Of a stretch of DNA of 41,804 bases, positions 1,628-41,185 are shown in pieces; the stretch's first letter is position 1, and the number at the start of each line of letters is the position of its first letter. The position numbers were made by a program, and so were the translations under genes. The DNA is from a virus, in the IMG/VR virus record IMGVR_UViG_3300045999_009121, positions 1-41,804 of that record. One strand, written 5' to 3'. Under the pieces are notes generated by a model. That model ran no database searches. It saw only the letters and a list, made by a program, of their open reading frames with translations, and was not told the origin of the DNA.

Positions 1628-1637
1628 TAGCGTAGCG
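1628..1637 (-). promoter_or_regulatory. CGCTACGCTA element, copy 1
   Basis: On the minus strand this reads CGCTACGCTATAGGATAAA, 39 nt upstream of the 259-aa minus-strand gene. It is one of 19 same-orientation copies. Confidence 0.6.
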
Positions 1638-9677: not shown

Positions 9678-9687
9678 TAGCGTAGCG
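9678..9687 (-). promoter_or_regulatory. CGCTACGCTA element, copy 2
   Basis: On the minus strand this reads CGCTACGCTAGGGTGTGATG, 26 nt upstream of the 72-aa minus-strand gene. It ends 3 nt before the plus-strand ATG at 9691, which therefore has no Shine-Dalgarno sequence. Confidence 0.6.
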
Positions 9688-10969: not shown

Positions 10970-10979
10970 TAGCGTAGCG
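10970..10979 (-). promoter_or_regulatory. CGCTACGCTA element, copy 3
   Basis: On the minus strand this reads CGCTACGCTAGGAGATAG, 28 nt upstream of the three-gene antisense cassette and 6 nt before the large terminase ATG on the other strand. Confidence 0.6.
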
Positions 10980-13021: not shown

Positions 13022-13031
13022 TAGCGTAGCG
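13022..13031 (-). promoter_or_regulatory. CGCTACGCTA element, copy 4
   Basis: On the minus strand this reads GACGCTACGCTATGGGGGG, 24 nt upstream of the 67-aa antisense gene. It is a clear example of the G-run that follows the core. Confidence 0.65.
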
Positions 13032-17232: not shown

Positions 17233-17264
17233 CTAAGGATGTGAGTATTAATTCACATCCTTAG
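17233..17264. terminator. Strong hairpin after the capsid gene
   Basis: CTAAGGATGTGA and TCACATCCTTAG form a perfect 12-bp stem with an 8-nt loop, starting 8 nt after the capsid stop codon. There is no U-tract, so it may act in both directions as a terminator, or stabilise the capsid mRNA. The next intergenic region (18239) begins with the related string TCTAGAGCGC. Confidence 0.6.
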
Positions 17265-17493: not shown

Positions 17494-17503
17494 TAGCGTA
17501 GCG
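17494..17503 (-). promoter_or_regulatory. CGCTACGCTA element, copy 5
   Basis: On the minus strand this reads GCGCTACGCTAGGGATTAATG, 25 nt upstream of the 66-aa antisense gene. Confidence 0.6.
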
Positions 17504-18767: not shown

Positions 18768-18777
18768 TAGCGTAGCG
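18768..18777 (-). promoter_or_regulatory. CGCTACGCTA element, copy 6
   Basis: On the minus strand this reads CGCTACGCTATGGGGGAATT, 27 nt upstream of the two-gene antisense cassette. Confidence 0.6.
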
Positions 18778-22026: not shown

Positions 22027-22036
22027 TAGCGTAGCG
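22027..22036 (-). promoter_or_regulatory. CGCTACGCTA element, copy 7
   Basis: On the minus strand this reads AAGACGCTACGCTATTGG, 15 nt upstream of the 30-aa membrane peptide. That gap is the shortest of the set. Confidence 0.6.
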
Positions 22037-23467: not shown

Positions 23468-23477
23468 TAGCGTAGCG
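23468..23477 (-). promoter_or_regulatory. CGCTACGCTA element, copy 8
   Basis: On the minus strand this reads AAGACGCTACGCTAGGGGAG, 35 nt upstream of the 102-aa antisense gene and 4 nt from the plus-strand ATG at 23482. Confidence 0.6.
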
Positions 23478-24574: not shown

Positions 24575-24584
24575 TAGCGTAGCG
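24575..24584 (-). promoter_or_regulatory. CGCTACGCTA element, copy 9
   Basis: On the minus strand this reads GGACGCTACGCTATGGGGGA, 23 nt upstream of the 70-aa antisense gene. Confidence 0.6.
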
Positions 24585-27495: not shown

Positions 27496-27505
27496 TAGCG
27501 TAGCG
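27496..27505 (-). promoter_or_regulatory. CGCTACGCTA element, copy 10
   Basis: On the minus strand this reads CACGCTACGCTATGAGGTAA, 24 nt upstream of the membrane-peptide pair. If it is a promoter, its transcript would continue into the CRISPR-like units. Confidence 0.6.
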
Positions 27506-28633: not shown

Positions 28634-29088
28634 AACGTAGCTCAACTACTTTATTTCTGGAATGTCCTAATACTGTGCTGCCTGTGCCTTGGTCGGGCAT
28701 TGAGAATGTGGTCTCCAATATTCAATCTGCTTACCAATCGCCCACAAGAGAAGTGGCGATTGCATCATGGGATGCTTTTGTAGCCAGTGGCGATGAGTTA
28801 GAGGTAATTGCCGATCCAGAGCCAGCGCCGCCACAACCTGATTGGGATGGATTCATGGCTGATTGTGATGATGTGTTTGCGGCAGGATTGCAAGCTAACT
28901 ACCTTGTATTCACACAGATATTTAATATGCTCCTTGCTCTTAAAGGGAAGGGCGCATTAGATGAGTCTAGCCCAGAGTGGAGATGCTTTGCCTTTAATTA
29001 TCAGATAGGCAAAGCATCTCTCACCCCAGAGCAGATTGCACAAGTAGAGTTGTCAATGGCTAACAACAATATTCCTGTGCTGTCCTAA
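28630..29088 (+). CDS. Fibre-associated protein
   Basis: This 152-aa acidic protein (EVIADPEPAPPQPDWDGFMA) has a helical C-terminal part. It overlaps the fibre gene by ATGA. Such small genes behind fibres are often assembly factors or cotransferred structural genes. Codon use resembles the end of the fibre gene rather than the rest of the window. A perfect 14-bp inverted repeat lies in its 3' part, and it overlaps the convergent primase gene by 36 nt. Confidence 0.55.
   Translation: MKRSSTTLFLECPNTVLPVPWSGIENVVSNIQSAYQSPTREVAIASWDAFVASGDELEVIADPEPAPPQPDWDGFMADCDDVFAAGLQANYLVFTQIFNMLLALKGKGALDESSPEWRCFAFNYQIGKASLTPEQIAQVELSMANNNIPVLS
28980..29020. terminator. Perfect 14-bp inverted repeat inside a coding region
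   Basis: GAGATGCTTTGCCT (28980-28993) and AGGCAAAGCATCTC (29007-29020) pair perfectly around a 13-nt loop. It lies 33 nt past the primase stop on the minus strand, so it could end early minus-strand transcription, although it is also read as protein on the plus strand. There is no U-tract. Confidence 0.6.
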
Positions 29089-29964
29089 AGCTTCATCTAC
29101 TAACCTATAAACTTCTCTAAGGAAATAGGTAGTGTGTAACATTAGTAACTCATAGCTATCCCAACCCTCTTGCCAATAGACTAACTCTCTAAAGTCAAGT
29201 GCCATAGACCACAACCCAACTTCACGACAAGCCTCTACCCACTTATCTCTTTTCCTTTGACCTGCAAGGTCAACATCGGGGATAAGTAAAGGATAGAGGC
29301 TTTTGTCTTTGAATTGTTGTGCATATCTCTTAAGGTCACTACTAGTCCAGCAACTACCTTGAGGGCAAGTAGCAGCTATACCATGTAACCACCATGCTTG
29401 TACTGACTTCTCACCCTCTGGTACTACTACTAAGTTGCCCGCGCCCATGGGTATCTTATCAATTAAGTACATATCCCAAGGTTCATCGCCTTTGCCTAAT
29501 CGTCCATTAGAGTATTGCCTAAAGGTTTTGTCCCTAACTAACTCTCCATCCTCTGTGGTAGTCATCCTCTCTATACGTTCTGTGTATTGAGTAGAGCTAT
29601 AATTATATCTCTGTATTCGCTTATCACCATCCCACCTATAGCTAGGCGCTCTAGGTTCTACATGAATAAGTTCTAAGTGCTGTGGTGGTACTATAGATGG
29701 ATAGACTTTAGGCTTAGATGCTTTCCACTTGTTAAGAGATACGGTGTTAGAGTCATAGGACTTAACACCCATAGCCTCTCTTATCTCGTGGCACTGACAA
29801 CCAGCCCAGCATTGATAAGCTCCTGCGGTGAAGGTAGGGCTAGTATGTTTCTTAACAGTCAAGGTATCGTTATCACAGACAGGGCATAGATAACGATACT
29901 CACTTGGGGACTCCTTAACTAAACGATGGGTAAGGAGGTCTATGTGGTCAAGCATATTAAACAT
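29053..29964 (-). CDS. DNA primase (zinc finger and TOPRIM)
   Basis: This 303-aa protein has an N-terminal zinc-binding region with C27-x2-C30 and C52/C56/C58. A TOPRIM core follows, with LVVVPEGEKSVQAW (the Glu motif) and LLIPDVDLAGQRKRDKW (the DxD motif). This layout is that of phage primases that start lagging strands. No helicase domain is attached, so a separate helicase is needed and is not in the window. The start codon overlaps the upstream Xre-type regulator stop. Confidence 0.85.
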   Translation of the reverse strand: MFNMLDHIDLLTHRLVKESPSEYRYLCPVCDNDTLTVKKHTSPTFTAGAYQCWAGCQCHEIREAMGVKSYDSNTVSLNKWKASKPKVYPSIVPPQHLELIHVEPRAPSYRWDGDKRIQRYNYSSTQYTERIERMTTTEDGELVRDKTFRQYSNGRLGKGDEPWDMYLIDKIPMGAGNLVVVPEGEKSVQAWWLHGIAATCPQGSCWTSSDLKRYAQQFKDKSLYPLLIPDVDLAGQRKRDKWVEACREVGLWSMALDFRELVYWQEGWDSYELLMLHTTYFLREVYRLVDEALGQHRNIVVSH

Positions 29965-30202
29965 TAATAGACCTCACAATATTCTTCCCATTCCTAGAAG
30001 ACGTAATTGTTATAGAGATACTGACATCTAAAGCCTTAGCAAAAGATTCAATTGCTTCAAGTGGAATACTTCTCTGGTCGGTTTCCATAAATGAAATCGC
30101 TGCTTCAGAATAGCTGACCTTGGAAGCTAAAACTTCCTGTGTCAACCCAGCTTCTTTCCTTAGCGCTCTCAATGTTTTTGCTACTTGTGTTCTTAAGTTC
30201 AT
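29957..30202 (-). CDS. Xre-type helix-turn-helix regulator
   Basis: Starting at ATG 30202 (MNLRTQVAK) this gives 81 aa. Residues about 8-65 form a classic Cro/CI-like HTH: LRKEAGLTQEVLASKVSYSE then AAISFMETDQRSIPLEAIESFAKAL. It is first of an operon with the primase. A perfect 14-bp palindromic site overlaps its own start codon, strongly suggesting autoregulation, and a second site of the same geometry lies before the wHTH gene at 38166. Confidence 0.88.
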   Translation of the reverse strand: MNLRTQVAKTLRALRKEAGLTQEVLASKVSYSEAAISFMETDQRSIPLEAIESFAKALDVSISITITSSRNGKNIVRSINV

Positions 30203-30239
30203 ACGCAATTAGATAATATAAGGACTATCTAATTGCGTA
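30202..30239. promoter_or_regulatory. Operator 1: 14-bp inverted repeat at the Xre gene start
   Basis: TACGCAATTAGATA (30202-30215) and TATCTAATTGCGTA (30226-30239) are perfect inverted repeats separated by 10 nt. The left arm overlaps the regulator's start codon, so bound protein would block its own expression. The half-site core ATTAGATA recurs with the same 10-nt spacing at 38174-38205. Confidence 0.75.
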
Positions 30240-30246
30240 GCACTAC

Positions 30247-30462
30247 TTATATTGCTTTGAGAGCTTTAAGAACTAGTCTTGGAGCATGATGAACATTACC
30301 CCAATTTAGTTTCTTTTGCAGCCACTCATCAGCATTAACTAAGACACCATCATGAGTACACATCAAGCCAGTATCAGGGAAGTACCATAGCTTATTGTTT
30401 CTTTCATGCAGCACTTTAATGAAGTATTGAATATCACCCTTCTTGATGTGAATTAGTGCCAT
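30247..30462 (-). CDS. Hypothetical early protein
   Basis: Starting at ATG 30462 (MALIHIKKGD) this gives 71 aa. It overlaps the upstream gene by 29 nt in another frame. Beta-rich N-terminus (IQYFIKVLHERNNKLWYFPD), helical basic C-terminus. The family is not recognised. Confidence 0.65.
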   Translation of the reverse strand: MALIHIKKGDIQYFIKVLHERNNKLWYFPDTGLMCTHDGVLVNADEWLQKKLNWGNVHHAPRLVLKALKAI

Positions 30463-30706
30463 CTTCAACCTCAAACAGTGGGAGTTCTTCTATCTCAGTC
30501 TGCTCAACACCAAACGCATCTTCTATAGCCTCATTAACCACAGCACACCATACCCTATAAGGATGATTGATACGCTGTCCAAAAGGATAGACTTTATTCA
30601 ACTCCCTCCTAAGTTTAGAGCGTGTCATTAATCCATCCCTACAAGATTGTCTGTGTTGGACTAGGACTGGATTGATTGCCTTTAAAGCTTTATCTTTCCA
30701 AGTCAT
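30434..30706 (-). CDS. Hypothetical early protein
   Basis: This 90-aa protein has a basic, helical N-terminal half (TRSKLRRELNKVYPFGQRIN) and an acidic C-terminal tail. The HPYRVWCAVVNEAIEDAFG segment is typical of small phage proteins of unknown role. It lies just downstream of the DUF932-like gene on the minus strand. Confidence 0.65.
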   Translation of the reverse strand: MTWKDKALKAINPVLVQHRQSCRDGLMTRSKLRRELNKVYPFGQRINHPYRVWCAVVNEAIEDAFGVEQTEIEELPLFEVEDGTNSHQEG

Positions 30707-30762
30707 TCTATTCTCAGTCCTCTATATACTATCCATCCCCATAGGAGATAGATAGTTGTAGG

Positions 30763-31494
30763 TTAAAGTCCTAACGCCCTAGCAACACCATCATAGGCTT
30801 TGATTTGATAATCAGCGCCCTTGTGGAGCTTGAATACTTCTGTGCAAGCCATGAGGAACTGATAAGACCTACCCATATCTAAGAACTCAGAATGCTTAGG
30901 AGCAATAAACTCTTCCCAGATAAGCTTAATATCTGTAGGAGCAATGATATTAGATAGGGTTAAATCAACTAGGATTTCTTTAACCACGCTATCATCCAAG
31001 TATTTGCTACTCATGTTTTCAAACCTGTCAAAGAAGCTGTCAGGTTTAGTAGTTGCATGAGTAGATAAAAGCTCAGAGAACTCCCTACTCAACTCATCTA
31101 TATTCTCAGCACTGGTGTGTTTCCTAGACACAACACCACCATTCTCATAAGACGCAAGCACCTTATTAGAACAGACCATAATCTTAGTTCCTACGCACAA
31201 CCCAGCACTCATGGACTTATCATAAGAGTTACGTCCACCGATACAAAGTGGCATATCATTGACTTGAGCATCAGTCTCTAACCACATGAACATCCTATCT
31301 CTCTTAGGAGTAAGCCCAAAGGAAGTAGTGACAATACCAATGCCAATATCACTAAGGACTTGGTAGGCATTGCGGTAGAGGTCAATGTGAGGTAGTGGAT
31401 AGTAGGTTGATGTACGTGCTACTTGTGGTAGAAACTCGTCATCATTTAATCGTGATGCATCTAATACATCACATCCTTTAAATATCTTTGGCAT
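30763..31494 (-). CDS. DUF932-like early protein
   Basis: This 243-aa protein has the central pattern GGRNSYDKSMSAGLCVGTKI then MVCSNKVLAS and SRKHT, which matches the NS-D-S-----G--LVCSN-L--...-HT layout I know from DUF932 proteins of plasmids and phages. Their biochemical role is unsettled; they often lie among replication and recombination genes, as here. The length is on the short side of that family. Confidence 0.65.
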   Translation of the reverse strand: MPKIFKGCDVLDASRLNDDEFLPQVARTSTYYPLPHIDLYRNAYQVLSDIGIGIVTTSFGLTPKRDRMFMWLETDAQVNDMPLCIGGRNSYDKSMSAGLCVGTKIMVCSNKVLASYENGGVVSRKHTSAENIDELSREFSELLSTHATTKPDSFFDRFENMSSKYLDDSVVKEILVDLTLSNIIAPTDIKLIWEEFIAPKHSEFLDMGRSYQFLMACTEVFKLHKGADYQIKAYDGVARALGL

Positions 31495-31503
31495 TGTTAT
31501 TCC

Positions 31504-31860
31504 TTACTTGTTTAATCTTCTTGTCTTAGGTAATGAAGGGTTAGGCTTGTCTTTCCAATGGTTAAACAAACCCAAATCTTTTTCATGTCTAGCCATAGCC
31601 TTAAGGATACAAACCCCACCAGCTAATGAATAGAAATCACCACGCTTCTCTAAAGCTTTGCGAAAACATCGCTCACTATACAAAGCTAGTCTGTCCCACT
31701 GCCCTAGCGTAGTTAGCTGATTAAAGTTATTGTCAGTATCTCTTAGGCAATACCAAGTGATGTCACTATTAACTAAGCTAATCCCACACTCTTGAGCAAT
31801 AGGAAGATAGTACTCTTGATGAGTACATTCCTTATTCATGTATTGTTGTCTTGTCCACAT
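31504..31860 (-). CDS. RQxYxNK-family early protein A
   Basis: Starting at ATG 31860 (MWTRQQYMNKECTHQEYYLP) this gives 118 aa. It is paralogous to the next minus-strand gene: RQ-Y-NK--T---YY--IA at the N-terminus and FRKA...G-VC-LK--AR near the C-terminus. Small phage proteins of this form, where a -TH-EYY- motif is followed by a late CI-KE-AR motif, are common and uncharacterised. The repeated element lies 25 nt upstream. Confidence 0.7.
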   Translation of the reverse strand: MWTRQQYMNKECTHQEYYLPIAQECGISLVNSDITWYCLRDTDNNFNQLTTLGQWDRLALYSERCFRKALEKRGDFYSLAGGVCILKAMARHEKDLGLFNHWKDKPNPSLPKTRRLNK

Positions 31861-31885
31861 CGCCTTACTCAATAGTTTTACCTAT

Positions 31886-31895
31886 CAGCGTAGCG
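31886..31895 (-). promoter_or_regulatory. CGCTACGCTA element, copy 11 (CGCTACGCTG)
   Basis: On the minus strand this reads GGACGCTACGCTGATAGG, the only copy with a changed tenth base. It lies 25 nt upstream of the 118-aa gene. Confidence 0.55.
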
Positions 31896-31898
31896 TCC

Positions 31899-32219
31899 TT
31901 ACTTAGCTATAGAACGAGCCACTTCCTTAAGCACACACACCACTTCACCCCTAGCCATGACACCACCAGCTTTACGGAAAGCTGTACTCATCCTTTGTGC
32001 ATTGACCATAGAAACTAGGTCAACCCAACCACTAATGTTATTGAGTAAGCTATCCTCTTTTACCGCCTTTCTTAGCTCATACTTAACGTATAAAAGCTTA
32101 GTGGCTAACCATTCACTTACTAACTGCTCAAGTTCTTCATAGTTGTAATAGTGAGCTATGCGTGAGTAGTAGTCTTTGTATGTAATGGTCTTGTTTAAAT
32201 AATCTTGTCTATCGGTCAT
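31899..32219 (-). CDS. RQxYxNK-family early protein B
   Basis: This 106-aa protein is a paralog of the preceding entry (MTDRQDYLNKTITYKDYYSR, then FRKAGGVMARGEVVCVLKEV). Helical throughout. A CGCTACGCTA element lies 26 nt upstream, so the two paralogs each have their own copy rather than sharing one promoter-like site. Confidence 0.7.
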   Translation of the reverse strand: MTDRQDYLNKTITYKDYYSRIAHYYNYEELEQLVSEWLATKLLYVKYELRKAVKEDSLLNNISGWVDLVSMVNAQRMSTAFRKAGGVMARGEVVCVLKEVARSIAK

Positions 32220-32245
32220 TATTAATCTCTGTAACTATTACCCAC

Positions 32246-32255
32246 TAGCGTAGCG
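32246..32255 (-). promoter_or_regulatory. CGCTACGCTA element, copy 12
   Basis: On the minus strand this reads AAGACGCTACGCTAGTGGG, 26 nt upstream of the 106-aa gene. A plus-strand promoter candidate begins 3 nt to its right, so this is a divergent control region. Confidence 0.6.
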
Positions 32256-32257
32256 TC

Positions 32258-32288
32258 TTGAGAATGAGGTATAGGTGTGAGGTATAAT
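32258..32288 (+). promoter_or_regulatory. Plus-strand promoter candidate (TTGAGA-19-TATAAT)
   Basis: TTGAGA at 32258-32263 and TATAAT at 32283-32288 are 19 nt apart, about 27 nt before the ATG of the 297-aa plus-strand gene at 32315. This is the best sigma70-like plus-strand promoter in the window. Confidence 0.55.
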
Positions 32289-32314
32289 GTGGCTAACTAT
32301 TAACTGCTCTTTCT

Positions 32315-33208
32315 ATGGATGTACTACAGCCAATTATCTCAACTTTAGGTGACTTTGTTTCTCCAGCAGACGCAGATTTAATTAGTAATCTAAGACAGGC
32401 TACTCAATCAAGTAACTTGCTTAATGAAACACTGCTCAATAGACGCATACCTAGCCGTCAAAGAATAGCTAAGTCTGCGGGGCGTATGGCAAAAGATCTA
32501 TTGCGTAACCCTATAAGCACGGTTAAACAAGGGTTACAAAGAGATTATGCTGCAAACCAACTAGCGGTTAGACTTGGTAGTAGCAGGTCTAAGATAACTA
32601 AATCAGTCATCAATTCATTTAAAGACCCTATCAAAGATTTAGCTGTAAACATAGGTGGCTTTGCTGGTTCCGTAGCTCTAGGCTCTATGGGGCTACCAGC
32701 ACAATTAGCAGGGGACTTTGGTGGGGCGTTCATTACCCGTAGAGCTATAGATGACATCCAAACAACTAGAGAAGTGTTCAAAGAACTTAAAGGTATGGAT
32801 TCATGGAGAAAACAAAACCTGTTAGGCAAAACTACGTCTCTAGTTAATACAACTGGTCAGCGCATTATAGATAAGTACAATCAAACCCCTATGCCACTAC
32901 TAGATGACACTGTAGGTTGGGCTGTAGGTAATTCGGTTGCAGAAACATTACCATTGCCAATACCATTCAAAGGTGCTGGCGTAGCATTAGTCTATGCTCC
33001 TACATTAACTGATGGAGTAAGAGAACTGATGTCAGGCACTCCACTTGGTCAAGTAGTCTCTAATACTAAAAAAGCATTAGGCGAAAGAACTAAAGAAGTA
33101 TTTAAACAAGGCTCAATGAGAGAGCTTGCTGCTAGACAGAAATTCAATAGTCAACTAGAGCAAGCCCTATCTCCTATGAATCTGACCAGAAGATTAGCAA
33201 GGATGTAG
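32315..33208 (+). CDS. Hypothetical protein with Gly-rich membrane-type segment
   Basis: This 297-aa protein is basic overall. A central Gly/Ala stretch (about 110-140, NIGGFAGSVALGSMGLPAQL) recalls the Gly-rich proteins of the 1.6-6.5 kb operon. A second hydrophobic segment lies near 215-235. It is a plus-strand gene isolated among minus-strand early genes and driven by its own promoter candidate. It may be a late virion protein. No family was recognised. Confidence 0.6.
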   Translation: MDVLQPIISTLGDFVSPADADLISNLRQATQSSNLLNETLLNRRIPSRQRIAKSAGRMAKDLLRNPISTVKQGLQRDYAANQLAVRLGSSRSKITKSVINSFKDPIKDLAVNIGGFAGSVALGSMGLPAQLAGDFGGAFITRRAIDDIQTTREVFKELKGMDSWRKQNLLGKTTSLVNTTGQRIIDKYNQTPMPLLDDTVGWAVGNSVAETLPLPIPFKGAGVALVYAPTLTDGVRELMSGTPLGQVVSNTKKALGERTKEVFKQGSMRELAARQKFNSQLEQALSPMNLTRRLARM

Positions 33209-33273
33209 CTACTATAAGAACAGCTAAATATATCCAATAACTTTCCATAACATTCTCTATAATTAATCATTCT

Positions 33274-33555
33274 TTAGCGTAGCGCCCTTGAGGATGGAGT
33301 ATAGGAGTTGAGCAATAGGTCAGAGATATCCAACACAACACCCAAGGCTATATCCCATATCACATACTTCCAGTGGGGTTCTCTATGTTCATCAAGGATA
33401 TCCCACTCCATACCAATGACTTGTACTAAGTCACCATCATCATCCTTAAGTAAGTCACCCACACCAAACTTAGGCTTACTCATTACTAAAGGTGCTGCGT
33501 CATCTCTACGATAACTAGCTTCAAGTGCATCATATTTAACTATTGACTCTGACAT
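33274..33555 (-). CDS. MSExIV-family antisense protein A
   Basis: This 93-aa protein is paralogous to the 97-aa protein at 34839-35132: MSE-IV--D--EASY-RD-AAPLV, then VIG-EW-I-D---EPHW-YVIWD. Its last residues (SRALR) are encoded by another copy of the repeated element (33275-33284), which seems to have replaced the original C-terminus. A CGCTACGCTA element lies 29 nt upstream of its start. The function is unknown. Confidence 0.72.
   Translation of the reverse strand: MSESIVKYDALEASYRRDDAAPLVMSKPKFGVGDLLKDDDGDLVQVIGMEWDILDEHREPHWKYVIWDIALGVVLDISDLLLNSYTPSSRALR
33275..33284 (-). promoter_or_regulatory. CGCTACGCTA element, copy 13 (inside a gene end)
   Basis: This copy encodes the last codons of the 93-aa minus-strand gene. 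No minus-strand gene of note lies just downstream: a 39-codon ORF from 33270 runs antisense to the 297-aa gene but has no support. Confidence 0.45.
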
Positions 33556-33584
33556 AATATATACTTGTCTTAATTGTTATCCCA

Positions 33585-33594
33585 TAGCGTAGCG
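33585..33594 (-). promoter_or_regulatory. CGCTACGCTA element, copy 14
   Basis: On the minus strand this reads TACGCTACGCTATGGGATAA, 29 nt upstream of the 93-aa gene. It is part of a 34-nt block (33577-33610) repeated exactly at 35153-35186. Confidence 0.65.
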
Positions 33595-33595
33595 T

Positions 33596-34327
33596 ATGTC
33601 TGGTCGTATTGCATTGATGGTTAAAGGGCTGCCATCTATTCCTATAGATGAAGCTGTAGAAAGGTTTGGAAAGTACTATCCTAGCAGCAGGACTGAAGTG
33701 TTTCACAAAAGCCCTTCATTTCTTGGGAAAGTTACAGGCAATAGTGTTTCTTTTACTAATGCAAGCACAGGGACATATGAGGGAGGGCAAGGGATTAACA
33801 AGCAAACTATGGGGGACTTAAGAAAACTTCAGGAAGACTTCAATAGATACATAACAGAAAACCCAGGGATATACATTAATGATCCTACTAGCGCTTCAAG
33901 AGCAAGGCTTTATAAACGAGTAGGATTTAATAGCAATTCATTAACAGGGACTCAAGCTTTAGATGCCCGAAGGATAGCTGACGAAGACCTACCTTATGTT
34001 AAAGCTTTAGATTCAGCAATTCATCAAGGAGCTACTAAAAATGCTCTTAATATAAATGCAACTCCAGCTTTTCTTAAAAGCGGAGATAAGGTCTCGTCTA
34101 TGTCAAGAATTAATCCAGATTTAATCTTGTCAGCGCTTAGAGGCGGGAATGTTAATAATATATTGACTGAAGCAGTAGACTATGCTTTAAGTTCTAAGCC
34201 TACATTTAAACTAAGAAATCAAATTAAAAGACGCTCTGCTCGACCACCTCTCCCCCCTATGCCTGAAAACCTTCTCAGCTTTGTTACCAGTATAGACTCC
34301 GACCCACTCTACTCCGACCCATTCTAA
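33596..34327 (+). CDS. Hypothetical protein
   Basis: This 243-aa protein starts MSGRIALMVKG immediately after the repeated element, with no Shine-Dalgarno sequence. Basic residues and short helices alternate; a Pro-rich stretch (RPPLPPMPENLL) lies near the C-terminus. One segment (ASRARLYKRVGF) looks superficially like the C-terminal motif of GNAT acetyltransferases, but the rest does not fit. The first five codons are duplicated at 35172. Confidence 0.6.
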   Translation: MSGRIALMVKGLPSIPIDEAVERFGKYYPSSRTEVFHKSPSFLGKVTGNSVSFTNASTGTYEGGQGINKQTMGDLRKLQEDFNRYITENPGIYINDPTSASRARLYKRVGFNSNSLTGTQALDARRIADEDLPYVKALDSAIHQGATKNALNINATPAFLKSGDKVSSMSRINPDLILSALRGGNVNNILTEAVDYALSSKPTFKLRNQIKRRSARPPLPPMPENLLSFVTSIDSDPLYSDPF

Positions 34328-34331
34328 ACTT

Positions 34332-34829
34332 ATGCCAGCCCTAACCCTAGCACAACAACTATCAACCCTCCTAGCCAACACCTTTGTTTTTAGCCAACAA
34401 CTACACAGCTTTCACTGGACATATGCTGGTCAAGGTTTCATATATCTACACCCATTCTTAGGCGATGACTACTCCAATACCTATGAGTCAGTCGATACCT
34501 ATGCAGAGGAAATACTAACCCTCAACTACGAACCACCAACTAGACTATCAGAGTACCTGGCCCTATCTACCTCCATCAAAGAACTACCCAAGATAGATGA
34601 CCCTGAGAAGATACTCCACATAGCCTACAGTGGACATAATATCCTTGGTGAACTAATCAAAGGTGTATTCAAGACAGCAGAAGAATGTGGAGCTAATGAC
34701 ATTGCTAACTACCTAGCTGAACGTCAGAACTACCACTACAAACAAGCATTCTTCTATCGTGCTGAGTTAGGCATCAAAGTCCCTTCAGTGTTTGAAGCAT
34801 CTAAGCCCAAGCTTCAGACTAACGCATGA
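34332..34829 (+). CDS. Dps-like ferritin-fold protein
   Basis: This 165-aa protein has the Dps ferroxidase signature: FHW with H28, LH with H40 exactly 12 residues later, then VDTYAEE with D55 and E59. The spacing is identical to that of E. coli Dps (H51, H63, D78, E82). The fifth ligand (Dps D67) is Gly44 here, with Asp45/Asp46 adjacent. Dps proteins oxidise iron with peroxide and may coat DNA. The length matches. It starts 4 nt after the previous stop, so it is cotranscribed. Confidence 0.8.
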   Translation: MPALTLAQQLSTLLANTFVFSQQLHSFHWTYAGQGFIYLHPFLGDDYSNTYESVDTYAEEILTLNYEPPTRLSEYLALSTSIKELPKIDDPEKILHIAYSGHNILGELIKGVFKTAEECGANDIANYLAERQNYHYKQAFFYRAELGIKVPSVFEASKPKLQTNA

Positions 34830-34838
34830 TTTGGCTAA

Positions 34839-35132
34839 CTACTCTTTATAGGTAATGCCCATTCTCTTTGGGAGATAGCCAGAGATAATACGGTTGTGAT
34901 GTAACTCAAGAACACAGCCTAACTCTACATCCCATATTACATAATGCCAATGTGGTTCATTGTCTACATCAGTAATGCGCCATTCAATACCAATGATTTG
35001 AATTACTTCACGCTTTCTGTTCTGAAGCAGTTGACCTAAACTAAAGCAACATTTAGGTAAAACTAAAGGCGCTGCGTTATCCCTGTGGTAACTGGCTTCA
35101 ATTGAATCATGCTCAACTATTTGTTCTGACAT
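34839..35132 (-). CDS. MSExIV-family antisense protein B
   Basis: This 97-aa protein is a diverged paralog of the 93-aa protein at 33274-33555 (SEQIVEHDSIEASYHRDNAA, EPHWHYVIWDVELGC). It retains a normal C-terminus (YLPKRMGITYKE), unlike its paralog. A CGCTACGCTA element lies 28 nt upstream. Confidence 0.72.
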   Translation of the reverse strand: MSEQIVEHDSIEASYHRDNAAPLVLPKCCFSLGQLLQNRKREVIQIIGIEWRITDVDNEPHWHYVIWDVELGCVLELHHNRIISGYLPKRMGITYKE

Positions 35133-35152
35133 AATATACTTAATCTAATTGT

Positions 35153-35186
35153 TTATCCCATAGCGTAGCGTATGTCTGGTCGTATT
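35153..35186. repeat. 34-nt exact duplication of 33577-33610
   Basis: The block spans the repeated element and the first five codons of the 243-aa plus-strand gene. It is identical at both sites, while the adjacent minus-strand paralogs have diverged strongly. Confidence 0.85.
35161..35170 (-). promoter_or_regulatory. CGCTACGCTA element, copy 15
   Basis: On the minus strand this reads TACGCTACGCTATGGGATAA, 28 nt upstream of the 97-aa gene. It is identical in context to copy 14. Confidence 0.65.
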
Positions 35187-35189
35187 TAG
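35172..35189 (+). pseudogene. Five-codon relic of the MSGRI gene start
   Basis: ATG TCT GGT CGT ATT TAG repeats the first five codons of the plus-strand gene at 33596 and then stops. It is best read as the left-over 5' end of a lost gene copy, or as a copied cassette boundary. It overlaps the end of the 127-aa minus-strand gene by 4 nt. Confidence 0.7.
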
Positions 35190-35569
35190 CCCCCAATTCT
35201 AGCAGTGCTATAACCAAGCAAATCAGTAGGTCTATTCTCATCAAGGAGTATCCACTTAAAGATAATCCATTGTTCATTAACCCCATTAACACGACACTTA
35301 TAGATAGGGTACTTAGATGACTCATCCTTTCGTGGTGGTGGGGTATTCCAATCCCTAGTCACGGGGTTAGACTCACTGCCATAAGGAAAAGGTATAGGCT
35401 CACTTAAGTTACCCCATATCTCATCACTCCCATCCCACACCTCTAGTACTTCTAGTAATGTGTTCTGGATAAAAGGATGGGGCAACACTTCACCTATATA
35501 TCTAGGATAAGTAGTTATGCCTGACTGTATTGTTGTGTTAGGTATGTATTGAACTGATGTTTGACCCAT
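35186..35569 (-). CDS. Hypothetical early protein
   Basis: Starting at ATG 35569 this gives 127 aa; the start overlaps the upstream stop in TGATG. Pro- and aromatic-rich (PIPFPYGSESNPVTRDWNTP), predicted mostly beta. Its 3' end runs into the MSGRI relic. The family is not recognised. Confidence 0.65.
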   Translation of the reverse strand: MGQTSVQYIPNTTIQSGITTYPRYIGEVLPHPFIQNTLLEVLEVWDGSDEIWGNLSEPIPFPYGSESNPVTRDWNTPPPRKDESSKYPIYKCRVNGVNEQWIIFKWILLDENRPTDLLGYSTARIGG

Positions 35570-35835
35570 CACTCTTTGCCTACAGATAATAGATGACCTA
35601 TTAAGTCTAACTTATCAGCGTACATCCCAAGGTCAATATCGACACACTGCCAATGCTCACTGCATGGGGCTACATGAATACCACCATCCATCAATCGATA
35701 AAGGTAAGCCCAATAACCTATGACTTGATACACAACACAAGGCGAATCGTACTGCTTAACCATACGGGCTAAGTTATCATTGCTCTTTTGAGCAACCTTA
35801 GATAGTTTAAATAGTACGATATCACCCTTAGTCAT
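35569..35835 (-). CDS. Hypothetical early protein
   Basis: This 88-aa protein starts MTKGDIVLFKLSKVAQ and looks like a small SH3-like beta barrel (DIVLF, CVVYQVIGYWAYLYRL) with a helical tail. It lies 17 nt downstream of the nuclease gene and is coupled to the next gene. The function is unknown. Confidence 0.65.
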   Translation of the reverse strand: MTKGDIVLFKLSKVAQKSNDNLARMVKQYDSPCVVYQVIGYWAYLYRLMDGGIHVAPCSEHWQCVDIDLGMYADKLDLIGHLLSVGKE

Positions 35836-35852
35836 TGCAAGGAACTCACATC

Positions 35853-36779
35853 TTACGATGCGCTCAACTCAGGATACATCTCATAAAACTTCTCGACCTT
35901 CTCAAGCCACATTCTATTAAACCAATCCTTTTCCATACCATTGATAGATAAAGTTTGGATACCTTTAGCCGTGACTACCAACACAATGTACTGCTCTACA
36001 TAGATACCTAGTGATTCCTGAAGTGCAAGGTCATAGGCGCTTTCTTGCATCCCCGCTCTACGAAACTTCATGTTAGCTCCATAGTTTTCCCTCCATCCTT
36101 CAGGTGGTGCGAACTCAATACCTTGCGCTCTACACTCAGCCAACCTAGCATTGAACGCTTTCCAATCAGGGCTAACCTTAGAGTAGTTCTTGTCAGAGGT
36201 CTTGAGAGAGATAAGCGATAGTTTAGTCTCACCTTTAGCATTAGTGTAGTTACCCACAAAGTCAGGCACACCAGCATAGCGATGAGTCTTAGAGCTAATG
36301 AACTCCTGCTCCTTAGCAATCTTAATATCTGGATGATAGAACTGCCTTTCACTCCTAGGGATATCAACACAATCTAGTAAGCCCTGACTCCATATAACAT
36401 CAGTAATCTGAGCAAGGATGGATTTACCTGTAGCCTTGATTGGCTTGAGTATTGCATCCATGAATGGCTTTACATCCTCTGGTAAACCCCATGATGTAGG
36501 TAGTACACGACTCTCAGGGTCTAAGGCAAAGTACTTAGAAAGACGGTCATCAATGAGAGAACCCCTATCCTTTGGCTCTGTCTTACCTTCGTTCTCTGGG
36601 TCAGCTTTCCACTTCTCAGACCAGTTCTCTAGTCTAGTTTGTGCTGCTCTAGATTCAGTACCACTAAGGATAGTTGTAACGCTAGGAGCGTCAAATCCCC
36701 ACTTGGTAGGGTAGAACCTAGCACTGCTTGTAAGCTTAGATTTAGTCTCAGCTTTCTTCTTAGGCTTAGTTGTAGCCAT
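35853..36779 (-). CDS. PD-(D/E)XK family nuclease (RecB/Cas4-like)
   Basis: This 308-aa protein has core nuclease motifs in order: a helix with the Arg/Asp-rich RGSLIDDRLSKYF segment (about 75), GVPDFVG with the catalytic Asp (about 170), and LISLKTSDK with the Lys motif (about 190). This is the arrangement of phage-encoded RecB-like exonucleases used in recombination or host DNA breakdown. The basic N-terminus (TKPKKKAETKSK) is a flexible tail. An extended -10 promoter and an inverted-repeat leader precede it. Confidence 0.75.
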   Translation of the reverse strand: MATTKPKKKAETKSKLTSSARFYPTKWGFDAPSVTTILSGTESRAAQTRLENWSEKWKADPENEGKTEPKDRGSLIDDRLSKYFALDPESRVLPTSWGLPEDVKPFMDAILKPIKATGKSILAQITDVIWSQGLLDCVDIPRSERQFYHPDIKIAKEQEFISSKTHRYAGVPDFVGNYTNAKGETKLSLISLKTSDKNYSKVSPDWKAFNARLAECRAQGIEFAPPEGWRENYGANMKFRRAGMQESAYDLALQESLGIYVEQYIVLVVTAKGIQTLSINGMEKDWFNRMWLEKVEKFYEMYPELSAS

Positions 36780-36830
36780 AATCTATTCAGTTCCCTTTAC
36801 TCCAATGGAGTTATTAGTAATGAATAGATT
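36780..36830 (-). promoter_or_regulatory. Nuclease leader with nested inverted repeats
   Basis: AATCTATTC (36780-36788) pairs with GAATAGATT (36822-36830). Inside them ACTCC-AAT-GGAGT makes a smaller hairpin. The outer arm covers the start codon region, so the structure could gate translation of the nuclease. Confidence 0.5.
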
Positions 36831-36834
36831 ATAG
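36826..36834 (-). promoter_or_regulatory. Extended -10 promoter for the nuclease
   Basis: The minus strand reads TGCTATAAT, a textbook extended -10, about 47 nt before the nuclease ATG. No matching -35 was found, as is common with extended -10 promoters. It overlaps the leader palindrome. Confidence 0.6.
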
Positions 36835-36838
36835 CATG

Positions 36839-36901
36839 TTACGGCACTGGTGGGTATGGACAAGGCGGTAATGATGGGATAGTATCATCATCTTCTTCCA
36901 T
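36839..36901 (-). CDS. 20-aa proline-rich micropeptide
   Basis: This ORF encodes MEEDDDTIPSLPPCPYPPVP. Its ATG overlaps the stop of the 44-aa gene upstream (TAATG), which suggests coupled translation and so that it is real. It is acidic then proline-rich. The function is unknown. Confidence 0.4.
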   Translation of the reverse strand: MEEDDDTIPSLPPCPYPPVP

Positions 36902-37035
36902 TACTTTGAACCTCTTAAATTAACAGCTTGTTCTTTTGTTAGACAGATAACTCCATAGGGAGTAAGGACTGTCACTTGGTTGGCTCTACACTCAGATGTA
37001 TTGAGTAGTAGAGCTAGTATGATGTTTTCTAGCAT
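36901..37035 (-). CDS. 44-aa probable secreted peptide
   Basis: An ATG with GAGGT 8 nt upstream gives 44 aa. The N-terminus MLENIILALLLNTSECRANQ looks like a short signal peptide, possibly cut after Ala18, leaving a small peptide VTVLTPYGVICLTKEQAVNL plus RGSK with one Cys. It lies between tRNA-Tyr and the nuclease. The family is not recognised. Confidence 0.5.
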   Translation of the reverse strand: MLENIILALLLNTSECRANQVTVLTPYGVICLTKEQAVNLRGSK

Positions 37036-37069
37036 TTGTGTTTACCTCGTAGGTTATGTTTATTGTAAA

Positions 37070-37156
37070 TGGGAATAGCTAGAATTGAACTAGCGGCGGT
37101 TCAATGTTCTGGTTTTACAGACCAGCGTGACACTTACCAACAGTCACCATATTCCC
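37070..37156 (-). tRNA. tRNA-Tyr (GUA)
   Basis: The acceptor stem is GGGAATA/TATTCCC, the anticodon stem-loop is CTGGT-CTGTAAA-ACCAG with anticodon GTA, and the T-arm is GCTAG-TTCAATT-CTAGC. A 14-nt variable region fits a bacterial class II tRNA-Tyr. CCA is not encoded. All helices close without mismatch. A phage tRNA-Tyr may supplement host decoding during late expression. Confidence 0.9.
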
Positions 37157-37160
37157 TGAC

Positions 37161-37238
37161 AGGTAAGGTAGGACTTGAACCTACGACTTGACAACAGTAT
37201 TAACCGTCCTCCCCTCTAACCATCTGAGGTACTTACCA
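37161..37238 (-). tRNA. Irregular tRNA-like gene
   Basis: The acceptor has 6 paired bases (GGTAAG/CTTACC) plus a U-U at the end; the D-arm is CCTC-AGATGGTTA-GAGG and the T-arm GTAGG-TTCAAGT-CCTAC. The anticodon region is about 5 nt too long: only a GU-rich stem GACGG/TTGTC with a 9-nt loop can form, so no anticodon can be assigned. It is either a decayed tRNA or a tRNA mimic, separated from tRNA-Tyr by 4 nt. Confidence 0.55.
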
Positions 37239-37449
37239 ACCGCTAATGTACTTTTCGGCCCATAGCTGCCGTAGTTGTCTTTTTGAGTGTTCAACATCAC
37301 TCACATTAGTTTTTTATTTAAAGACCTAACCCTTGTAGTAAAAGTCTCCATACCTTCCTGTTTCAAGACTGTTCGGGTGCATGGTTCGATAGTCTATAAC
37401 CGCTAGTTAAAGTGTAGTAGGTTATCTTCACTTGTGTTTAAAGTTATCT
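37239..37449. other. Non-coding stretch between tRNA-like gene and CRISPR-like unit
   Basis: No ORF was found. TGAGTG-TTCAACAT-CACTCA (near 37285-37305) forms a 6-bp hairpin with a T-run a few bases later on the plus strand. AGACT and AGTCT bracket a GGTTCGAT T-loop-like string near 37384, but no full tRNA closes. It probably belongs to a minus-strand non-coding transcript starting near 37549. Confidence 0.4.
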
Positions 37450-37472
37450 GTTTCAATCCCTAAGAAGGGTTA
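37450..37472 (-). CRISPR. Lone CRISPR-repeat-like unit
   Basis: On the minus strand it reads TAACCCTTCTTAGGGATTGA then AAC: an imperfect hairpin followed by the ATTGAAAC handle typical of cyanobacterial repeats. The final 12 bases (AGGGATTGAAAC) are identical to those of the unit ending at 27108. No second repeat lies nearby. It lies about 100 nt downstream of a CGCTACGCTA element, in the crRNA sense. Confidence 0.5.
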
Positions 37473-37490
37473 GCCAGCATCTAACACTAT

Positions 37491-37505
37491 CCCCTAGCGT
37501 AGGGG
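37491..37505. repeat. Palindromic variant of the repeated element
   Basis: CCCCTAGCGTAGGGG is a perfect 6-bp hairpin with a GCG loop. On the minus strand CCCCTACGCTAGGGG resembles CGCTACGCTAGGGG. It lies 44 nt from copy 16, so this region has two tandem related elements. Confidence 0.5.
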
Positions 37506-37549
37506 CTAAGAGATAGTAGTCAGGACAATGTGCCGCATCGTCTATCCAG

Positions 37550-37559
37550 TAGCGTAGCG
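37550..37559 (-). promoter_or_regulatory. CGCTACGCTA element, copy 16 (before the RNA-gene region)
   Basis: On the minus strand this reads GGACGCTACGCTACTGGATA. The next features downstream are the CRISPR-like unit, tRNA-like gene, tRNA-Tyr and the 44-aa gene, with no CDS in the first 500 nt. If it is a promoter, it drives RNA genes. Confidence 0.55.
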
Positions 37560-37602
37560 TCCTTGAGGATAGGAGCTTAATGGTTAGTCATTGAGGATAA
37601 AG

Positions 37603-38166
37603 CTATACTTCACCCTTAGTGTCTTTGCCATTAAGGATATCAATAGCGCCCAACACTTCGCCCAAAGCTTTAGACAGTTTGACCTGGGCTTTGTGTTCCT
37701 TGGAGTTAGGTCTGCCTGACAACATCTCAATCTGTGCTTTGCGAAGGATATCAACGCAAGCGCTGACCATTTCTGCAATGTCGTATCTACTATCTCTCTG
37801 CAAGTTAGCAGGGGTGAATAGAGATAGCTGAGATGCAATGGTACTCACGGGCATACGGTACTCCTCAAACGCGGTAATCTCTGCTGGTGGGTTTTCCATG
37901 GTTGCTAATGCACTGGTAATATCAAAAGTTTGAGCGCGGTCTAACTGATCTGGATTAGTCATCATGTAACTAGAGCCTTCTCCTTTGCCGCCAGCAATAG
38001 TTTGAATTTCCCAGCCAGCTTTCTTCAGCTTGTGGATACAATCTGATGGGCGGTTAATCTTTGCATAGTCCTTTAAATCATTCTCATGGTGTTGACCACC
38101 AGTAGCAAGGAGAGAAAGGACTAACAATTGACTAGGCGCTGTAGGGGCTTCAAGAAATGCAGTCAT
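37603..38166 (-). CDS. Winged-HTH early protein
   Basis: This 187-aa protein has residues about 10-55 in a winged helix-turn-helix layout (LLVLSLLATGGQHHENDLKD then YAKINRPSDCIHKLKKAGWE and a wing IQTIAGGKGEGSSY). The C-terminal half is helical. It may be a regulator or a replication-associated DNA-binding protein. A palindromic operator with the same core and spacing as at the Xre gene lies 7 nt before its ATG, so it is probably under Xre control. Confidence 0.65.
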   Translation of the reverse strand: MTAFLEAPTAPSQLLVLSLLATGGQHHENDLKDYAKINRPSDCIHKLKKAGWEIQTIAGGKGEGSSYMMTNPDQLDRAQTFDITSALATMENPPAEITAFEEYRMPVSTIASQLSLFTPANLQRDSRYDIAEMVSACVDILRKAQIEMLSGRPNSKEHKAQVKLSKALGEVLGAIDILNGKDTKGEV

Positions 38167-38173
38167 ACGTTTA

Positions 38174-38205
38174 GCTATTAGATAGTGTTAGTTCTATCTA
38201 ATAGC
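38174..38205. promoter_or_regulatory. Operator 2: 12-bp inverted repeat before the wHTH gene
   Basis: GCTATTAGATAG (38174-38185) and CTATCTAATAGC (38194-38205) pair perfectly around 8 nt. The inner cores ATTAGATA and TATCTAAT are 10 nt apart, exactly as at 30202-30239. Its right arm runs directly into the repeated element at 38202-38211. Confidence 0.75.
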
Positions 38206-38211
38206 GTAGCG
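38202..38211 (-). promoter_or_regulatory. CGCTACGCTA element, copy 17 (fused to operator 2)
   Basis: On the minus strand this reads AACGCTACGCTATTAGATAG. The last four bases of the core are shared with the operator arm. It lies 35 nt upstream of the wHTH gene. Confidence 0.6.
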
Positions 38212-38215
38212 TTAC

Positions 38216-38821
38216 CTACTCTTCGTCTAAAGACGTATCATTGGCTGAATCATAGTCATCATCATCTTCATCATCAGCATCTTCAATATCATCTAGCTCC
38301 TCTTGAGTCAACTCATAAGTAGCATCATTGAAAGCAATAGGCGCTGTGACTTCAGGCTGACGTTGAGCTAACTCAATATCAAGACCAGCCACTTCTACAG
38401 TATCTTGGCAATTACCACACTCACCACCACAAGGAGAGAGTGCTGTGACTTGAGTAAATGCACCACGGGCTACATCCTTAATTAAGGACAGTTGTTGTGT
38501 TGTGAGAGCGTTGAAGTCAATAGATAAGACTTCATTTACTAGGAATAGCTTAGTCTCGGCATCTTGAACCATAGCTTTAGTTGTGGCTGTGTAAGGGTAT
38601 AAATAACCTTGATTCCCGCGAGTAACTTCTTCTCCTGTGGCAGGATTAAAACGCTTGCCATTGTCTAAGATAAAAGACTTCTCGTTAGACACCATTACTT
38701 TTGCAACCTGTAATCCGTGAAGATATTGATTGCTATAAGTATGAGCATCAGCATAGTAGATTACAGAGCCAGCGTGAAGTTCAGAAGGATGTACGGGGTC
38801 AGTTTCAAATAGGTTTGTCAT
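38216..38821 (-). CDS. Early protein with Cys cluster and acidic tail
   Basis: This 201-aa protein has a Cys cluster SPCGGECGNCQDT (about 128-140) that could bind a metal. The last 40 residues are strongly acidic (DDIEDADDEDDDDYDSAND), reminiscent of the acidic tails of ssDNA-binding and replication-accessory proteins. Its start is coupled (TAATG) to the lipoprotein gene upstream. The N-terminal domain was not recognised. Confidence 0.65.
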   Translation of the reverse strand: MTNLFETDPVHPSELHAGSVIYYADAHTYSNQYLHGLQVAKVMVSNEKSFILDNGKRFNPATGEEVTRGNQGYLYPYTATTKAMVQDAETKLFLVNEVLSIDFNALTTQQLSLIKDVARGAFTQVTALSPCGGECGNCQDTVEVAGLDIELAQRQPEVTAPIAFNDATYELTQEELDDIEDADDEDDDDYDSANDTSLDEE

Positions 38822-40103: not shown

Positions 40104-40113
40104 TAGCGTAGCG
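40104..40113 (-). promoter_or_regulatory. CGCTACGCTA element, copy 18
   Basis: On the minus strand this reads GGACGCTACGCTACTAGGGG. The next minus-strand start is 294 nt away, across the structured leader. Confidence 0.55.
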
Positions 40114-41033: not shown

Positions 41034-41117
41034 AGTTTTAGTTCATAAATGATTACCCCACTCCGTAGAGCAGGGTAAAGGATTATTTGCAGGTCATATG
41101 TTTGTACCAAAGGGGAC

Positions 41118-41157
41118 GACTACGTTTAGTCAACTCAGACTACGTTTAGTCAACTCA
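41118..41157. repeat. Tandem 20-nt repeat with internal palindromes
   Basis: GACTACGTTTAGTCAACTCA occurs twice with no spacer. Each copy contains the inverted repeat GACT-ACGTTT-AGTC, and on the minus strand each offers TTGACT, a -35-like hexamer. Two palindromes spaced exactly 20 bp apart (about two helical turns) look like a cooperative operator pair upstream of the 85-aa gene. Confidence 0.6.
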
Positions 41158-41175
41158 TATTAATATTCTACCCCC

Positions 41176-41185
41176 TAGCGTAGCG
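41176..41185 (-). promoter_or_regulatory. CGCTACGCTA element, copy 19
   Basis: On the minus strand this reads AAGCGCTACGCTAGGGGGTA, 18 nt upstream of the tandem repeats and 142 nt from the start of the 85-aa gene. Confidence 0.55.

Follow-up and report, generated by a model that had tools for sequence, protein, structure and literature searches.

The stretch of DNA considered here, IMG/VR record IMGVR_UViG_3300045999_009121, was analyzed over its whole length of 41,804 bases (the window, abbreviated W). Two perfect inverted repeats on its minus strand, op1 and op2, lie at the start codons of two regulator genes, xre and a gene for a winged helix-turn-helix (winged-HTH)-like protein, and the left arm of each belongs to a copy of a repeated element, ACGCTACGCTANGGRTAA, that looks like a compact phage promoter. 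The sequence evidence speaks more for a base-paired RNA leader, built on this promoter-like element, than for a shared protein operator. Tentatively, and with somewhat less than even confidence, each inverted repeat is read as an RNA hairpin that would hide the start codon and whose 5' arm would double as a gene-local promoter-like element. The initial annotation had proposed a two-gene switch in which the Xre protein represses both its own gene and the winged-HTH gene; related, real signals are indeed present at the two genes, but the reading of both by one Xre protein is not borne out.

Op1 (30202-30239, minus strand) is TACGCAATTAGATA-n10-TATCTAATTGCGTA, with perfect arms of 14 bp, and its final base, at 30202, is the A with which the xre start codon begins on the minus strand. 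Op2 (38174-38205, minus strand) is GCTATTAGATAG-n8-CTATCTAATAGC, with perfect arms of 12 bp, and the winged-HTH ATG lies at 38166, 7 nucleotides (nt) past its end. Coordinates and sequences are exactly as first recorded for both. Read as RNA, op1 comprises a 5' arm (30239-30226), a loop (30225-30216) and a 3' arm (30215-30202), and op2 the corresponding segments 38205-38194, 38193-38186 and 38185-38174. The two have ATTAGATA-n10-TATCTAAT in common, and within the record TTAGATA-n10-TATCTAA occurs at exactly two places, op1 and op2; collection-wide, the same search gave scattered single matches among those listed, such a 14-base palindromic pattern being uninformative.

Repeats with arms of at least 12 and a loop of 3-20 number four in the record, when a first-order Markov model of this sequence predicts 0.025. 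A scan of all ATGs on both strands, in which a repeat counts as abutting if it ends at the start codon or no more than 8 nt upstream of it, returned only op1 and op2 with arms of at least 9. Both genes are present in three distinct phages that could be compared: W, G1 (L123) and G5 (~80% DNA identity). In G1 the same scan finds arms of at least 9 at the starts of xre and of the winged-HTH gene only; in G5 only the winged-HTH start has them, the xre repeat having an arm of 7 and standing among other arm-7 hits. Chance, or a role as intrinsic terminators of the upstream genes, is thus a highly improbable account of the repeats and appears largely refuted on these sequence grounds: beyond the low expectation, no T run follows op1 or op2, a terminator scan lists neither, and all three phages keep the repeats in front of the same two start codons. 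What speaks for it is that two further perfect long inverted repeats, 17233-17264 (12 bp) and 28980-29020 (14 bp, within the end of a plus-strand open reading frame [ORF]), both lie at convergent gene ends; these two are probably bidirectional terminators. Promoter and terminator scans also gave no support for reading the repeats as sigma-70 promoters or intrinsic terminators.

The leaders of the three phages have repeats at the same two genes and at the same place before the ATG, the positions of both op1 and op2 being kept in G5 and G1. On the transcript strand, the xre leader is TGCTACGCAATTAGATAGTCCTTATATTATCTAATTGCGTATG in W, TGCTACGCAATTAGATAACACATTATTTTAATTGCACGCATG in G5 and TGCTACGCAATTAGGTAACACATTATTCTAATTGCGTACATG in G1, and the winged-HTH leader is CGCTACGCTATTAGATAGAACTAAMACTATCTAATAGCTAAACGTATG in W and G5 and CGCTACGCTGGTAGATAAAACATTAGAACTATCTACCAGCTATG in G1. 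Op1 is reduced to GCAATTA-n15-TAATTGC in G5, where the TATC half is absent, and is CAATTAG-n13-CTAATTG in G1, so TATC is lost from the right half in both relatives; op2 of G1 is GGTAGATA-n12-TATCTACC. The identical geometry ascribed to the two repeats, a shared half-site with 10-nt spacing, therefore holds in W only, being changed in G5 and G1. What persists across the relatives, as read from these alignments, is complementarity; half-site identity and spacing do not. Following GC, the sites have A, T or G, with T, A or C respectively as the partner. In op2 of G1, two adjacent pairs are changed on both arms (AU to GC and UA to GC), op1 of G5 retains a G.U pair, and loop lengths vary from 8 to 15 with the pairing kept. 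A third, weaker site, op3, [TA]GCTACGCGATTAG...CTAATCCGAGACCATG, lies before a small lipoprotein-like gene in G5 (41232, minus strand) and G1 (L123:333-370). Across the seven rows that these three loci provide, from three phages only, the covariation score is 0.312, versus 0.117 +/- 0.037 for shuffled alignments (0/500 as high), and 83% of the cells are paired, versus 22-40% when the arms are slid. For this count the arms were aligned with a constant 3-nt spacer, since MAFFT left the variable loops unaligned by structure.

These comparisons bear directly on the alternative of a DNA operator, in which a controller-like Xre protein would bind op1 and control its own gene, and op2 would be bound by Xre or by the winged-HTH protein. 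The xre gene (29957..30202, minus strand) encodes an 81-amino acid (aa) HTH_3/HTH_31 regulator (Pfam HTH_31 1.2e-12, HTH_3 6.9e-12), in agreement with the initial Xre assignment. The clear HTH_3 fold favours an operator, as do its nearest solved relatives, restriction-modification (R-M) controller proteins of the C.Esp1396I type (PDB 4ia8, 1.6e-5), which control their own expression through a double operator of 35 bp at their own promoter (PMC4041747); op1 is 38 bp long in W and 35 bp in G1. The palindromes also overlap the promoter-like element, and op2 differs between W and G5 at only 1 of 48 bases. However, op1 and op2 do not share half-site and spacing in G5 and G1, and the TATC right half of op1 is lost in both. 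In addition, the Xre recognition helix is YSEAAISF in W, CGHSRISL in G5 and CGHSKISL in G1, and yet the left half-site GCAATTAGATA is kept in W and G5; the residues expected to contact DNA are unconserved (SEAAISF versus GHSRISL/GHSKISL) where the same GCAATTAG half-site is conserved. Nor does op2 similarity track that of the winged-HTH protein, which in W is nearer to that of G1 (81% versus 66%), whereas op2 of W is nearer to that of G5. Symmetric changes together with altered spacing would be unusual for a dimer site. On balance, the DNA operator is unlikely, though it is the foremost of the alternatives. Autoregulation at op1, alone or on top of a hairpin as in I-TevI, keeps about a quarter of our confidence because Xre resembles R-M controller proteins with a 35-bp double operator at their own promoter.

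The winged-HTH assignment is less firm. The 187-aa protein (37603..38166, minus strand) is conserved in G1 (81%) and G5 (66%), and it matches Pfam HTH_39 only below threshold (E 0.008). Residues 11-70 form helix-helix-helix-strand-strand in a predicted model of moderate confidence, and the best PDB matches of this model are winged helices of the PadR/MarR/ArsR type, none of them significant (E at least 0.0076).

The 5' arms of the repeats fall on conserved positions of the promoter-like element. Its octamer, CGCTACGC, has 19 copies in the window, all on the minus strand (19:0), when 0.3 would be expected, and it is also one-sided by strand in the relatives. Only contigs of the W phage group were used, a search with GCTACGCNATTAGNTA having matched mostly contigs that do not carry the repeated element. 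The consensus from 80 distinct sites of the phage group is ACGCTACGCTA, then NGGRTAAA and a weak A/T pair at +21/22, with little conservation further upstream. Of the 19 octamers, 13 have the ATG of an ORF of 50 aa or more 20-60 nt downstream, versus 1.8 for random positions, and the distance from element to start codon is typically 33-49 nt. Copies are found before early genes of the minus strand, and before small genes of that strand which are nested among the plus-strand structural genes. In W, G1 and G5 the element also precedes tRNA genes, with no near start codon, which argues for a transcription signal rather than a translation signal. Sigma-70-like sites are fewer than expected in the early region from 29900 to 38500 (8 versus 19.5 +/- 3.8 in shuffles). 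The element family is probably the promoter family of this phage group.

The initial annotation had noted that the repeats merge into the repeated element, and this is true of both, each left arm being part of a copy. At op1 the element variant TGCTACGCAATTAGATAG (30224..30242, minus strand) contributes positions 3-16 to the 5' arm, and at op2 the copy CGCTACGCTATTAGATAG (38193..38211, minus strand) contributes positions 6-17. Upstream, a co-directional ORF (30247..30474, minus strand) stops 4 nt before the op1 element and a co-directional gene (38216..38821, minus strand) stops 4 nt before the op2 element; therefore a run-through mRNA would hold the complete hairpin. A co-directional upstream stop within 4 nt is found at 6 of 8 repeat sites, and one within 15 nt at 6 of 44 other elements (Fisher p = 0.001).

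In the proposed mechanism, the element would act as a compact phage promoter from which transcripts would start at about element position 8-18, at or behind the 5' arm. Messages running through from the gene 4 nt upstream would contain both arms, and would be folded and untranslated; those started at the element would lack most of the 5' arm and would be translated. Expression of xre and the winged-HTH gene would then depend on the use of their own element rather than on operon read-through, and in time the two regulators would follow the activity of the phage's own machinery for transcription. Between the end of the 3' arm and the ATG lie 0-7 nt. Opening positions -13 to +5 at 25 C is predicted to cost 12-20 kcal/mol in read-through RNA and 3-7 kcal/mol in RNA begun at element position 12 (six xre/winged-HTH sites). 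The drop with a start at +12 is 6.4-12.4 kcal/mol at 6 of 6 xre/winged-HTH sites, the median over 51 element leaders being 0.6, and it needs an RNA start at position 8 or later. Because this energy difference follows from the repeat itself, it illustrates the hairpin model and is no independent test of it. Independent support comes from three features of the sequence: the arms covary, the 5' arm overlaps the element, and the upstream stop abuts the element.

If the element is a promoter, a phage RNA polymerase could be the enzyme that reads it. The relatives (L171:2364-5219 minus strand, L294, L295; G9) encode, outside the part represented by the window fragment, a 951-aa protein with a conserved DFDGD motif. 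Two-barrel RNA polymerases, P23-45 gp96 among them, carry DFDGD as their catalytic signature, and gp64 has the DxDxD form (PMC10770324). From this motif the 951-aa protein is a candidate single-chain two-barrel RNA polymerase. Searches of Pfam, PHROGs, the PDB, phages (by tblastn) and genome contigs returned nothing significant for it. A DFDGD protein together with a strand-specific motif upstream of genes recalls the RNA polymerases of Thermus phage P23-45, which have their own short promoter motifs (PMC10770324), and YonO of SPbeta (PMC5467207). The resemblance here is at the level of the motif, and the candidate lies outside the fragment, in the relatives.

Several points weigh against the start-hiding hairpin with its promoter-like 5' arm. 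Both the promoter function of the element and the position of the transcript start are deduced from sequence. The comparison covers three phages and few independent compensatory events, and symmetric changes can arise in DNA palindromes too. That the products of both genes are DNA-binding proteins would fit autoregulation. The op1 element is off consensus, with T at position 0 and A at position 8, making its strength as a promoter doubtful. Op3 has the same left arm in G5 and G1, and its hairpin is weak, with little or no predicted gating; the window has no such site. Finally, the polymerase candidate is recognised by its DFDGD motif, and an AlphaFold model of the 951-aa protein, made with two sequences, gave no usable structure (pLDDT, predicted local distance difference test, 29).

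An RNA hairpin could also have another role, either as a protein-bound RNA operator, as in the autoregulation of T4 gp43, or as a 5' structure that protects or processes the mRNA. Covariation and a position beside the ATG would fit any RNA stem-loop, and the op2 loop is nearly the same in W and G5. However, loop sequences are not conserved among the three sites (op1, op2, op3), or in G1 relative to the other phages, and such a role would not explain why 5' arm and element coincide; this account is considered rather improbable, more so than the DNA operator. Still less probable is a combination of both layers, a protein operator over the promoter and a translation-blocking hairpin, for which there is a precedent in T4 I-TevI (PMC2988022) and for which two genes encoding DNA-binding proteins would be apt; protein binding has no separate support.

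The start-hiding hairpin has known counterparts. Long early transcripts of T4 gene e and I-TevI fold and are silent, and transcripts from a promoter located in the 5' strand are translated (PMC3014915, PMC2988022). The leaders of T4 e, soc, 49 and I-TevI (PMC3014915, PMC2988022) resemble the arrangement proposed for op1 and op2 in that a stem hides the start region in upstream-initiated transcripts, the DNA encoding the 5' strand contains the promoter, local transcripts do not contain that strand, and the pairing is kept in related phages. Here, too, sequence and predicted folding give a stem over the translation start with compensatory changes. The differences from the T4 cases are that the phage is unrelated, that a compact element of ~20 bp with another sequence takes the place of the T4 late promoter, that the genes are regulators rather than lysozyme or a homing endonuclease, that no clear Shine-Dalgarno sequence is present, and that the transcript starts are inferred. 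The promoter-in-hairpin device is already known, and by analogy the present leaders would be a new form of it.

The SAS/ESAS sequences of cluster K mycobacteriophages (PMC3203893) are likewise numerous short asymmetric repeats, nearly all in one orientation and tied to gene starts; a subset is joined to inverted repeats with a variable spacer, and their function, as here, is a proposed one. In contrast to the present element, ACGCTACGCTANGGRTAA at 33-49 nt upstream, SAS is a 13-bp sequence, GGGATAGGAGCCC, a few nt from start codons. A role in translation initiation was suggested for SAS, whereas the element here also precedes tRNAs, and the inverted repeat precedes SAS, whereas here it overlaps and follows the element. 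C.Esp1396I (PMC4041747) provides a parallel to the xre product as an Xre-type protein of ~80 aa; its operator lies at its own promoter, where a putative Xre operator would lie here. It differs in that no R-M genes are seen beside xre, whose neighbours are a primase-like ORF and uncharacterised ORFs, and in that site spacing here varies between relatives.

It is possible, although the balance of our judgment is against it, that a non-T4 phage lineage, which appears to have an RNA polymerase of its own and a compact family of promoters on one strand, independently evolved promoter-in-hairpin leaders as a temporal gate, with two DNA-binding regulators expressible from the phage's own promoter and never by read-through. 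If true, the T4 trick of placing a promoter in a start-hiding hairpin would be convergent in an unrelated cyanophage lineage, where it would time regulators rather than lysis or homing. It would also show that a palindrome beside an Xre gene is not necessarily an Xre operator, three relatives having sufficed to separate pairing from dimer recognition. From the strand-locked element, arguably of more interest than the repeats, comes a concrete hypothesis on promoters, and a candidate phage polymerase to go with it, in a phage group of which no cultured member is known here.

The window is a tailed phage fragment. Its plus strand carries terminase, portal-like and capsid genes, and early-type genes occupy the minus strand from ~29 to 41.8 kb. 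The nearest relative of the terminase is that of Synechococcus phage S-EIV1 (36%); the label "cyanophage" is used because of this similarity, which points only weakly to the host. G5, G3, G4 and G9 are near-identical contigs of one relative that extend past both ends of the matching part; therefore the full genome should be larger, the record being a fragment of it. In S-EIV1 and Mwe-JY13, the isolates closest by terminase, CGCTACGCTA is present on neither strand. Profile queries in viral contigs and annotated phages yielded no more distant relatives of op1 or op2, and genome contigs none of the winged-HTH protein. An apparent site with another hairpin (G4 1057 / L221 12213) was discarded as it looks like coding sequence by eye. 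An Rfam scan returned a tRNA and nothing else.

Among the minus-strand octamers, those at 31888..31895, 32248..32255, 33587..33594, 35163..35170 and 1630..1637 have a start codon 35, 36, 39, 38 and 49 nt downstream, respectively. The next ATG that opens an ORF of at least 50 aa lies 110 nt downstream of 22029..22036 and 527 nt downstream of 33277..33284, and no ORF of that size is near 27498..27505. Copies at 9680..9687, 10972..10979, 13024..13031, 17496..17503, 18770..18777, 23470..23477 and 24577..24584 each precede a small minus-strand gene nested among the plus-strand structural genes; between 9433 and 24626, small minus-strand genes run antisense to the structural block, most with their own copy. 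The octamer at 37552..37559 is upstream of tRNA genes and has no near start codon, as is also the case in G1 and G5; downstream of it, at 37070-37239 on the minus strand, lie a tRNA-Tyr gene and a second tRNA-like gene, whose anticodon ARAGORN reports with only two bases. The copy at 40106..40113 has no near start codon, and that at 41178..41185 none of an ORF of at least 50 aa. Within the minus-strand early region, a plus-strand gene (34332-34829) that is conserved in relatives encodes a protein resembling ferritin/Dps (Pfam Ferritin 1.8e-14). At 41117-41156 on the minus strand, an element copy is directly followed by two tandem copies of TGAGTTGACTAAACGTAGTC (20 bp each), and each of these has an internal GACTA/TAGTC repeat.

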